Origin: Halorubrum depositum
GTDB lineage: Archaea > Halobacteriota > Halobacteria > Halobacteriales > Haloferacaceae
Direction of reading: 5' to 3'
Assembly (NCBI RefSeq): GCF_007671725.1
Contig: NZ_VCNM01000002.1
Span: 1,302,001-1,366,000 of the forward strand
DNA: 64,000 nt
Shown here: positions 19,819-30,484 of the stretch, piece by piece
How positions within the stretch are numbered: the first letter of the stretch is position 1
Layout of the letters: each line of letters opens with the position of its first letter
Made by a program: the position numbers and the translations under genes
Notes under the pieces: model-generated
Told to the model about the DNA's origin: nothing
Databases searched by the model: none
What the model saw: the letters and a program-made list of their open reading frames with translations, nothing else

Positions 19819-20265
19819 ATGGCGATCCCCTTCGATCCGCACGAGCTGGACCCCGAGGAGTACGGCGAGACGCGCGCGACGCTGTCGATGGACCACGAGT
19901 CCGCGATCGAGCGCGTCCGCGAGGTGTGTCTCGACGCCGGCTTCGGCATCCCGGTCGAGTTCTCCCCGTCCGAGATGCTGAACGAGAAGGTCGACGCCGA
20001 CCGCGACCCGTACTACGTCCTCGGCGCCTGCAACCCGGCGATGGCGGACCGCGCGCTCGACGCGACCGACAAGCGCATCGGCGGGCTGTTCCCCTGCAAC
20101 ATGATCGTCTGGGAGGAGTCGCCCGGCGAGCAGGTCGTCTACCACGTCTCGATCATGAAGATCGCGCGCCTCCTCGGCATGCCCGTCGACGACGAGGAGA
20201 TGGACGCGATAATCGAGGACACCGGCGAGATGGTCGACGCGGTGTTCGCGGAGCTGGCGGAGTAG
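19819..20265 (+). CDS. DUF302 domain protein
   Basis: 148 residues: MAIPFDPHELDPEEYGETRA, then HESAIERVREVCLDAGFGIPVEF, YYVLGACNPAMADRALDATD and IGGLFPCNMIVWEESPGEQV. The G-x-CNP-x-A and LLPCNMVV-like elements are the signature of DUF302 (TT1751-like fold). Members are widespread and their role is unsettled; some occur with redox or membrane proteins. Two Cys (in GACNP and FPCN) are conserved-looking. Structured repeat copy 1 follows directly. Confidence 0.9.
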   Translation: MAIPFDPHELDPEEYGETRATLSMDHESAIERVREVCLDAGFGIPVEFSPSEMLNEKVDADRDPYYVLGACNPAMADRALDATDKRIGGLFPCNMIVWEESPGEQVVYHVSIMKIARLLGMPVDDEEMDAIIEDTGEMVDAVFAELAE

Positions 20266-20326
20266 TCGACGGCGACGGCGTCTCCGCGACGATGTTTTTA
20301 AAGAGGTCCGAGATCGACGAGTCCAG

Positions 20327-20335
20327 TATATAAAC
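20327..20335 (+). promoter_or_regulatory. TATA-like element before structured repeat copy 1
   Basis: TATATAAAC lies directly upstream of the element at 20341. It would start transcription about 25 bases downstream, inside the first hairpin region. This is a candidate promoter if the element is a gene. Confidence 0.35.
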
Positions 20336-20340
20336 GGCCG

Positions 20341-20600
20341 GTGCGGTGGCGCGCCGGTGAGCGCCCGTGAGGGCGCGAACCGAGCGCGAGGGAGGCGGCG
20401 GTCCGGCGCGGCCGCGCCCGCGCCGGAGCGTCCGCCGAGGCTGGGGAGGCGTGAGGTGCGGAGCGGCCGCGGACGGGTGGGACTCAAAGGGGCAGCCGTG
20501 AGCGGGGCGCAGGCGACCTAAGGACCGCAGGGAGGGAGCGGTAGCGACCGACAGAGGACCGCAGCGAGCGTGCGCCCCGCTCACGGCTGGGGCTTTGGAG
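20341..20600 (+). ncRNA. Dispersed structured element, copy 1 (candidate non-coding RNA)
   Basis: A 260-base element in the gap between the DUF302 and khtU genes, closely related to 30141-30386. Shared parts, in order, are TGCGGTGGCGCGC, a variable GC hairpin, GAGGCTGGGGAGGCGTGAGG, GTGGGACTCAAAGGGG, a closing stem, and GGGGCTTTGG. The stem arms 20493-20511 (CAGCCGTGAGCGGGGCGCA) and 20571-20589 pair perfectly over 19 bp around a 59-base inner region. Five stem positions differ from copy 2 and all are compensated, which means selection on structure. Strand is inferred from the upstream TATA box. A mobile MITE-like repeat is the main alternative to an RNA gene. Confidence 0.6.
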
Positions 20601-20686
20601 GCTGTCACCGACGATCTCAGGTCAGCTATATATAAACGAGCGACCGGACCGTCAGATGTCCCCGCCGACGGTCCCGAGTCGATCGA

Positions 20687-27959: not shown

Positions 27960-28271
27960 CGCGTTCAATACAGTAGTTAGAGACATACGATGTTACAGAG
28001 CTACTGAACTGTACCAAGATGGTGTCGCCCACATCGCACTGTAATTCACTTTGCAACGCCACTCACGAGGGACTGCACTAGTCGAGTTCCTTGCCGACTC
28101 CCACACGTCCCGTGCCAGCCGAATCTTCGATCCCGACTCGTCGCAGTAGTGAGTTACCATCTCTGTGATCCGGTCCAGATCGCGCCGGGTTCGCTCATAC
28201 CTAAAGATACAGACTCGCATGAATCATGGATGTCAGCAAACGGGACCACGCGAGGGAAAGAACGAAGTGAG
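27960..28271. other. AT-richer stretch between pilin and tRNA, with one unassigned open frame
   Basis: About 310 bases of lower GC. A minus-strand frame of 75 codons at 27993-28220 ([20 protein letters not shown]) has no similarity I recognise and no clear promoter. It could be a relic of an element that once entered at the tRNA gene, because it lies on the tRNA 3' side. I did not find a second copy of the tRNA 3' end that would mark an attachment site. Confidence 0.3.
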
Positions 28272-28343
28272 TGGACTCGCGGGGATTTGAACCCCGGGCC
28301 TCTTCCTTGCGAAGGAAGCGATCTGCCGCTGATCTACGAGCCC
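28272..28343 (-). tRNA. tRNA-Ala, anticodon CGC
   Basis: A 72-base cloverleaf on the minus strand: acceptor GGGCTCG with CGAGTCC, D arm with AGCGGCA loop, anticodon stem CTTCC/GGAAG around loop TTCGCAA, T arm CGGGG-TTCAAAT-CCCCG, and discriminator A. The third acceptor pair is G-U, the main alanine identity element. Anticodon CGC reads GCG codons, which are frequent here. CCA is not encoded. No intron is present. A box reading TACAAATAC (28367-28375) lies about 25-32 bases before the mature 5' end. Confidence 0.97.
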
Positions 28344-29381: not shown

Positions 29382-30133
29382 TGCGCGCCGACGTCGACGC
29401 CGACGGCGACGCGGAGGTCGCCCCCGAGGCCGAGGCCGGAACGACCGCCGACGCGGAGGCCACCGACGCGGCCGAGTCTGTCGAGCGCGCGCTCGCGGCC
29501 TTCCGCGCCGGCGACCCGGTCTGCGTCCACGACTTCGCCGACCGCGAGGGGGAGACGGACATCGTCTACCCGGCCGGCGCCGTCGACGAGGCCGCGGTCG
29601 CGCACATGCGCAACGACGCCGGCGGGCTGATCTGCGTCGCGGTCGCAGACCCCGTCGCGAACGCGTTCGGGCTCCCGTTCCTCGCCGACGCGCTCGACCA
29701 CCCCGCGGTCGACGACGACCCGGACTACGACGACCGCTCCTCGTTCTCCCTCCCCGTGAACCACCGCGAGACGTTCACCGGGATCACGGACGAGGACCGC
29801 GCGCGGACCATCGTCGAGCTCGCGGGCGCGGCCGCCGACGTCGACGCCGACCCCGCAGGGTACGGTCCCGAAGACTTCGCGGCGGAGTTCCGCGCGCCCG
29901 GCCACGTCCACGTGCTCCGGGGCGACCGCGACGGGCTCGGCGGCCGGACCGGTCACACGGAGCTCGGACTCGCGATGGCCGAGGCCATCGGCGCCGCCCC
30001 CGCCGCCGTGGTCTGCGAGATGCTCGACGACGAGACGGGCGCCGCGCTGGCGCCCGCGGATGCCGAGGCGTACGCCCGCCGGCGACAGATTCCCTACGTC
30101 GAGGGCGCCGCGCTCGTCGAGGCGCTTAAATAA
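29381..30133 (+). CDS. ribB: 3,4-dihydroxy-2-butanone 4-phosphate synthase
   Basis: Makes the four-carbon unit of riboflavin from ribulose 5-phosphate. Of its 250 residues the first 35 are an Ala/Asp/Glu-rich leader. The catalytic features follow: HDFADREGETDIVYPA (acidic Mg2+ loop), MRNDAGGLICVAV, NHRETFTGITDEDRART (the TGI-x-DRA element) and GRTGHTELGLAMAEA (RxGHTE). The C terminus ends just before structured repeat copy 2. It is translationally coupled to ribK by the TGATG overlap. Confidence 0.93.
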   Translation: MRADVDADGDAEVAPEAEAGTTADAEATDAAESVERALAAFRAGDPVCVHDFADREGETDIVYPAGAVDEAAVAHMRNDAGGLICVAVADPVANAFGLPFLADALDHPAVDDDPDYDDRSSFSLPVNHRETFTGITDEDRARTIVELAGAAADVDADPAGYGPEDFAAEFRAPGHVHVLRGDRDGLGGRTGHTELGLAMAEAIGAAPAAVVCEMLDDETGAALAPADAEAYARRRQIPYVEGAALVEALK

Positions 30134-30140
30134 GCGAACG

Positions 30141-30386
30141 ATGCGGTGGCGCGCGCCTCCGAGCGGCCGCCCTCGGCGGCCGCGAGGTGCGCGTGCGAGG
30201 GAGTCGCTGGCGCCCTCGGCGCCAGCGACGAGGCTGGGGAGGCGTGAGGTGCGGTTGCGGTCGGGGTGGGACTCAAAGGGGCAGCCGCGAGAGGCACGGA
30301 GGCGACGCAAGCACCGCAAGGAAGGAGCGTAGCGACTGACTGAGAAGCGCAGCGAGCGTCCGTGCCTCTCGCGGCTGGGGCTTTGG
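30141..30386 (+). ncRNA. Dispersed structured element, copy 2 (candidate non-coding RNA)
   Basis: A 246-base element starting eight bases after the ribB stop, with the same order of conserved blocks as 20341-20600. Its variable hairpins are different but equally perfect (GCGGCCGC-CCTC-GGCGGCCGC and TCGCTGGCGCC-CTC-GGCGCCAGCGA). The closing stem arms 30282-30300 (CAGCCGCGAGAGGCACGGA) and 30359-30377 pair over 19 bp around a 58-base inner region. CTTAAATAA (30125-30133) at the ribB end may serve as a TATA box. Compensated changes against copy 1 support a conserved fold. No protein frame is shared by the copies in any credible way. Confidence 0.6.
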
Positions 30387-30484
30387 TGGTGTTCTCCGTC
30401 GCCCCAGTATCTACGAGATATAAGTGAACAGCGAGGACTCCGGCAGCATTCGACTCGTAATAGTCGCGTTCTCCGCATGTCGCA

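Follow-up and report, generated by a model that had tools for sequence, protein, structure and literature searches.

A covarying folded domain in haloarchaeal repeats that are probably IS6-type MITEs

Two structured repeats in a 64,000-nt stretch of the Halorubrum depositum genome (the whole stretch analyzed here, hereafter the window) probably belong to a family of non-autonomous transposable elements (MITEs) that spans the haloarchaeal class; the Halorubrum copies would be relics of this family, which would move by the mechanism proposed below. The earlier note had proposed either an undescribed haloarchaeal RNA that is abundant or a structured mobile repeat; abundance, structure and the lack of an Rfam match are confirmed. 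The mobile half of that reading is supported by relatives outside the genus, where the units have IS6-type ends and show 8-bp target duplications. The conserved structure itself is real and is more likely a DNA-level part of the mobile repeat than an RNA gene.

Both copies are present where they had first been reported (copy 1 at 20327-20640 and copy 2 at 30126-30424, AT boxes included; Table 1). As described then, the arms of the 19-bp stem are perfect in both copies and each of the five differences between the copies is compensated; in both, the stem does not end there, and beyond a symmetrical GGG/GGG internal loop CAAAG pairs with CTTTG. RNA folding is strong (z = −6.3 for copy 1 and −4.2 for copy 2, with none of 200 shuffles equaling either), and the window contains two occurrences of GGTGGGACTCAAAGGGG where 0.09 would be expected. 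Two of the initial claims need narrowing. The variable hairpins before GAGGCTGGGGAGG were said to be perfect in each copy, which is true of copy 2 (12 bp, 3-nt loop) but not of copy 1 (88% complementary, with internal loops). Likewise, structure rather than sequence is kept in the stems, but for the loops GGGACTCAAAGGGGCAG, GAGGCTGGGGAGG and GGG/GGG it is the sequence that is conserved. Spurious ORFs, reading for example ..GCPFESHP.., overlie the elements, as at 20153-20608 (−) of the window and at L455:1085-1618 (Halar_0093), and at least one stretch of this kind carries an annotation as a hypothetical protein. The sole Rfam match of the window is a tRNA-Ala (CGC) at 28271-28343 (−).

Table 1. 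Anatomy of the two element copies, in window positions
Feature	Position	Strand	Basis or remark
Copy 1, 5' AT box TATATAAA	20327..20334	.	sequence; 18 nt upstream of GGTGGCGCG
Copy 1, GGTGGCGCG and hairpin 1 with GA/GA internal loop	20345..20393	+	fold, 5' profile
Copy 1, hairpin 2, swappable module, imperfect (88% complementary)	20394..20436	+	
Copy 1, conserved block GAGGCTGGGGAGGCGTGAGG	20437..20456	+	alignment of copies
Copy 1, conserved block GGTGGGACTCAAAGGGG, opens 3' domain	20476..20492	+	
Copy 1, 19-bp stem, 5' arm	20493..20511	+	
Copy 1, 19-bp stem, 3' arm	20571..20589	+	
Copy 1, GGG, one side of the GGG/GGG internal loop, with CTTTG	20590..20597	+	CTTTG pairs with CAAAG at 20485-20489; inverted repeat, census
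Copy 1, 3' AT box TATAAACGAG	20631..20640	.	33 nt past domain; position of the IS6-type tip in relatives
Copy 2, 5' AT box TTAAATAA	30126..30133	.	overlaps stop codon of upstream gene
Copy 2, GGTGGCGCG and hairpin 1	30145..30202	+	sequence, fold
Copy 2, hairpin 2, perfect 12-bp stem, 3-nt loop	30203..30229	+	inverted repeat
Copy 2, conserved block GAGGCTGGGGAGGCGTGAGG	30230..30249	+	alignment
Copy 2, conserved block GGTGGGACTCAAAGGGG	30265..30281	+	
Copy 2, 19-bp stem, 5' arm	30282..30300	+	
Copy 2, 19-bp stem, 3' arm	30359..30377	+	
Copy 2, GGG and CTTTG	30378..30385	+	inverted repeat
Copy 2, 3' AT box TATAAG	30419..30424	.	at +33

Across the 3.18-Mb genome, GGTGGGACTCAAAGGGGCAGCC with at most two mismatches occurs 49 times, compared with no occurrence of the reversed control pattern, and the count of copies by covariance model that the earlier note had suggested returned 63 matches to the 3' domain, confirming that the element is abundant. 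In a set with one genome per species, the exact motif was found in 43 of 46 genomes of the genus, the highest count in one genome being about 155 copies, and 345 haloarchaea outside the genus all lacked it; Halorubrum salinarum carries a weak relative. The 5' half of the Halorubrum layout consists of an AT box (at −10 to −21 in the consensus of 46 copies in this genome), about 10 nt, GGTGGCGCG, hairpin 1, the variable hairpin 2, GAGGCTGGGGAGGCGTGAGG and a degenerate GTGCGG-rich spacer. It is followed by the 3' domain, whose length is constant at 122-123 nt and which runs from GGTGGGACTCAAAGGGGCAG through a long variable stem, a purine-rich apex in which GA/GA steps alternate with two-base-pair steps, and the second arm to GGGGCTTTGGAGGTGTTCACCG. 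A TATAA box lies no more than 75 nt past the domain in 66 of 137 copies, 49 of these boxes being exactly at +33 (3 in the control window), a rule that both window copies follow.

Structure statistics were calculated for 77 three-prime domains with a consensus of 29 pairs. The covariance-model test proposed in the earlier note found covariation far above background across these copies, as is characteristic of structured noncoding RNA families: intact pair cells made up 97.4% (83.7% in shuffles and 24-44% with slid partners), both sides had changed in 23 of the 29 pairs (13.5 in shuffles), the covariation score was 0.402 (0.151 shuffled), and none of 500 shuffles reached any of five measures. 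Point compensation was also seen in an otherwise fixed block, where CTCAAAG has become CTGAAAG together with CTTTG becoming CTTTC in Halobaculum copies. On the strand read here, the GGTGGGACT strand, the ratio of G.U to A.C is 52:17 in the genus and 37:12 elsewhere when the outermost pair is left out. Because these cells are not independent events, nominal p-values on them exaggerate the bias; by distinct contexts the ratios are 31:17 (p = 0.06) and 37:12 (p = 0.0005). Together with the covariation, the large excess of G.U over A.C shows that what folds is one particular single strand, whether RNA or single-stranded DNA. Under both RNA and DNA energy models, both strands fold significantly.

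The five changes between the window copies are not five independent events, because compensation arises in part from swaps of whole hairpins. Copies shared with the nearest species diverge by entire hairpins: at one orthologous locus they have an identical 3' domain but different hairpins 1 and 2, and a second locus shows the reverse pattern for these two hairpins. Such differences indicate that modules are exchanged between copies. The GGG/GGG loop is kept in 100 of 106 copies, the variants including single copies with CCC/GGG and GGG/CCC and another with CCC/CCC. The first two of these are the products that hairpin-templated correction would be expected to yield. At loci L166 and L032 the near-invariant GGG/GGG has been made complementary on one arm, likely a trace of such correction. 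Something nevertheless resists correction, given that 100 of 106 copies keep the loop. Even very strong covariation does not by itself establish an RNA, since a like signature would come from module swaps, from hairpin-templated correction or from selection acting on single-stranded DNA.

The domain is not confined to Halorubrum. With the covariance model, it was found in 135 of 170 genomes and 21 of 28 genera of the family in a scan that counted at most 20 copies per genome, 17 genera that were searched again had 4-87 domain copies, and in other haloarchaeal families it occurs in 28 of 40 genomes at up to 84 copies. Its loops are conserved over the whole class. Among the matches listed in a motif scan of all GTDB species, nearly all were haloarchaeal and one was a Prevotella record. 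A search for a viral origin gave no match among 2.9 million viral contigs or in a phage collection. Outside the genus the domain occurs singly or as divergent pairs: of 46 cases of neighboring domains, 44 were divergent, usually with 26-36 nt between them. The opposite, tail-to-tail order is rare (2/46) and is seen in G131 (L262).

We searched systematically for IS6-type tips around one or two domains and found 28 such units (25 under a stricter domain call), mostly of 198-378 bp with one of 505 bp, all too short for a transposase. Eight of the 28 have perfect 8-bp target duplications and two more have 7/8 (expected fraction 0.0013), and all 11 two-domain units are divergent. Counted by domain ends outside Halorubrum, 53 of 199 have IS6-like tips (4 in the control), mostly 37-58 nt outside the domain. 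Copies in G240 are more than 99% identical across about 350-377 bp, end in GGTACTGTTTAGATTAG and are flanked by the 8-bp target duplications TCAGCGAC and TCGAACCG. In G333, a 697-bp IS has ends GGCACTGTTCAGAT(T/A)AG, which match the unit tips GGTACTGTTTAGATTAG / GGTAGTGTTCAGATAAG, and its protein is an IS6-family transposase (NF033587, E = 2.9e-54). IS6 ends are defined by 8-bp repeats, GG tips and a cTGTt motif, and the two catalogued IS6 MITEs are 227 and 336 bp long (PMC7986276). The units outside the genus have the matching inverted repeats, 8-bp duplication, short length and cognate IS of an IS6-type MITE, whereas the Halorubrum copies, including those in the window, have neither tips nor a target duplication. 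These tips and duplications, and an IS with matching ends, identify the units as MITEs with a conserved folded domain. We use the label "IS6-type" because archaeal "IS6" elements have been argued to deserve a family of their own (PMC6807381).

IS6-like tips were found at none of 126 Halorubrum domain ends, where the TATAAACGAG box occupies the tip position instead, and flanks showed no excess of shared words indicative of target duplication. Within genomes no Halorubrum copies are near-identical (best ~86-92% identity), and the copies are old. Compared with the nearest species, whose coding flanks are ~92% identical, the element is common to 15 of 17 loci and two loci are empty; no clean empty site was recovered. 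This sharing of loci argues against current mobility in Halorubrum. In the absence of tips and target duplication, descent of these copies from IS6-type units is argued from domain homology and from where the AT box lies. The Halorubrum element, which is without tips, enlarged and mostly fixed, would then be descended from an IS6-type MITE or be a sister of one; that the AT box TATAAACGAG may be a diverged tip (compare TCTAAACAGTACC in G240) is only a suggestion.

In the mechanism that we propose, an IS6-type transposase would be supplied in trans, cutting at the tips and generating the 8-bp duplications, and the folded molecule would be mainly single-stranded DNA, exposed when the element is traversed by replication or by replicative transposition. 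At either end of a divergent pair, the strand that folds is the one with its 3' end at the nearest tip, as expected of the transferred strand, which makes a subterminal role in strand processing possible. If the folding strand in divergent units is indeed the transferred strand, the likeliest role of the fold would be in handling the ends of the element once they are single-stranded. The Halorubrum copies might be relics of such MITEs, or might no longer depend on them. Their shape could be maintained through selection, through exchange among copies and through hairpin-templated correction, in which one arm serves as the template for the other.

IS6-type transposition should require the tips alone, so mobility does not explain why the interior is conserved across the class. 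In a bolder reading, to which we give less credence than to the MITE assignment, the fold would have a function of its own, whether as an RNA or as a site in single-stranded DNA that acts in replicative transposition or replication. The domain would have been preserved within a MITE for as long as the class Halobacteria has existed, and Halorubrum, having lost mobility, would have kept it in immobile copies, up to about 155 per genome.

The main rival, and a rather unlikely one, is that the domain is specifically a structured noncoding RNA, or an RNA terminator or processing signal, with the MITE as its vehicle, every copy being transcribed from its own or a neighboring promoter and the fold being under selection as RNA. 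The strong covariation across 77 copies, the strand-specific G.U bias, the conserved unpaired blocks and constant length, and the point compensation between genera would all suit an RNA. However, the 5' AT box is only 18 nt upstream of GGTGGCGCG, which would place a normal archaeal start site inside the 5' arm, and an own promoter was rejected because this box is too close to the folded part. In the examples read, the ~33-nt centers of divergent pairs also lack a TATA-like box. Where neighboring genes are co-directional, the element lies on their strand in 22 cases and on the opposite strand in 19. A 3'-UTR or cis-regulatory role for neighboring genes was likewise rejected for lack of a strand preference, with a mild excess of convergent pairs (26 vs 17). 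The window copy has no Rfam match at E ≤ 1, and no relevant match was found among 4227 Rfam families even at a permissive threshold. Most apical loops, moreover, are triloops of the form C(GNA)G, which accounts for 37 of the 57 triloops in the genus and 45 of 54 elsewhere, and among tetraloops GNYA is as frequent as GNRA or commoner. C(GNA)G and C(GNNA)G are extra-stable hairpin loops of DNA, and RNA favors GNRA and UNCG; the loop pattern here is that of DNA rather than RNA. Solved GCGAAGC DNA mini-hairpins have been tabulated (PMC5430850). C-closed GNA triloops, no own promoter and no gene-strand preference together favor DNA over RNA.

Alternatively, the structure might be unselected, the perfect arms resulting from hairpin-templated (quasipalindrome) correction and module copying in inert repeats. 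Swaps of whole modules between orthologs, copies with the GGG/GGG loop made complementary, minimal 3-nt loops and tolerated nested hairpin inserts are consistent with this possibility. We nevertheless consider it improbable, as mismatched motifs that such correction would erase persist (100 of 106 copies have GGG/GGG, and all hairpin types seen have GA/GA loops), G.U is in excess over A.C on one strand, and loops are conserved across the class. A single-strand mobile element (HUH, IS200/IS605-like or REP/RAYT-like), in which a Y1 transposase would recognize the hairpin, as happens with PATEs and BIMEs, is very improbable despite its fit to the strand-specific fold, DNA-type loops, BIME-like inverted pairs and intergenic dispersal: no Y1_Tnp was found in this genome or in several others that have many copies, as many as 86, and units outside the genus have DDE-type ends and 8-bp duplications, which IS605-type elements and PATEs do not make (PMC3119063), so that this explanation is already largely refuted for tip-bounded units and could apply only to the Halorubrum copies. 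The presence of a Y1/HUH transposase was unrelated to element copy number, and no transposase was among the most frequent families in 100 proteins flanking the elements.

As MITEs with IS6-type ends, the units resemble MITEHarch3, a catalogued IS6-type MITE (PMC6807381) that is haloarchaeal by its name, in having no transposase gene, 8-bp target duplications and lengths of 200-380 bp. They would differ from it in holding a class-wide covarying 123-nt folded domain, and the Halorubrum copies differ from IS6-type MITEs in lacking tips. An inner GGGACTGAAAGGGG...GGGGCTTTCGAG would mark MITEHarch3 as a member of the same family. In strain DL31, which judging by the name is the presumed source of MITEHarch3, the copy that was read has no tips. 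Haloquadratum MITEs, PATEs and SMR are similarly abundant, transposase-free haloarchaeal repeats invaded by other small repeats, but PATEs have IS605-type palindromes and no target duplication, in contrast to the IS6-type ends, 8-bp duplications and class-wide conservation found here (PMC3119063). Bacterial REP/BIME sequences are also dispersed intergenic hairpins, often in inverted pairs and in up to ~150 copies, but they are ~35 nt long, whereas the present elements have a 123-nt domain with internal loops and DDE-type ends and need no RAYT/Y1 transposase. Rfam structured RNA families share a consensus structure with compensatory changes and differ in that none is a relevant match and in the DNA-type loops of the element. 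Integron attC sites fold as single strands and have variable stems and constant boxes. This likeness is no more than a lead, and the elements here are dispersed rather than arrayed.

A literature search on the motifs and on repeat terms found no description of the element, and the covarying class-wide 123-nt domain appears to be undescribed. MITE interiors are usually regarded as filler between the ends; in this family it is the interior that is conserved, in the form of a hairpin domain that covaries, is strand-specific and has a constant length, with divergent pairing and 1 to ~155 copies per genome. This makes it testable whether an IS6-type DDE element uses folded single strands or carries an RNA.

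Smaller repeats accompany some elements. Tandem tail units of 54-57 nt (GAGCGGCTGGGGCTTTGGAGGTGTTCACCG..TTTATAA) lie several in a row downstream of some elements (L094, L104; L021+, L040+). Two-hairpin mini-inserts of ~55-75 nt (GTCGCCGGCG..CGCCGGCTGCCAGAG..hairpin..GCTGG) occur in either orientation at the fixed loops of the element (L031, L032, L037, L040, L043 and L044 in this genome, at ~900-1150 in each) and resemble the palindrome-invading small mobile repeats of Haloquadratum. A second kind of two-hairpin insert, in which the linkers are CCAATC..GATGACG or GTTCGA..GTCATCACGA, was seen at L022, L034 and L037 in this genome, at L406-L409 in G240 and at L264 in another family. The presence of such inserts inside elements of different families of the order indicates that the mini-inserts are themselves widespread repeats.
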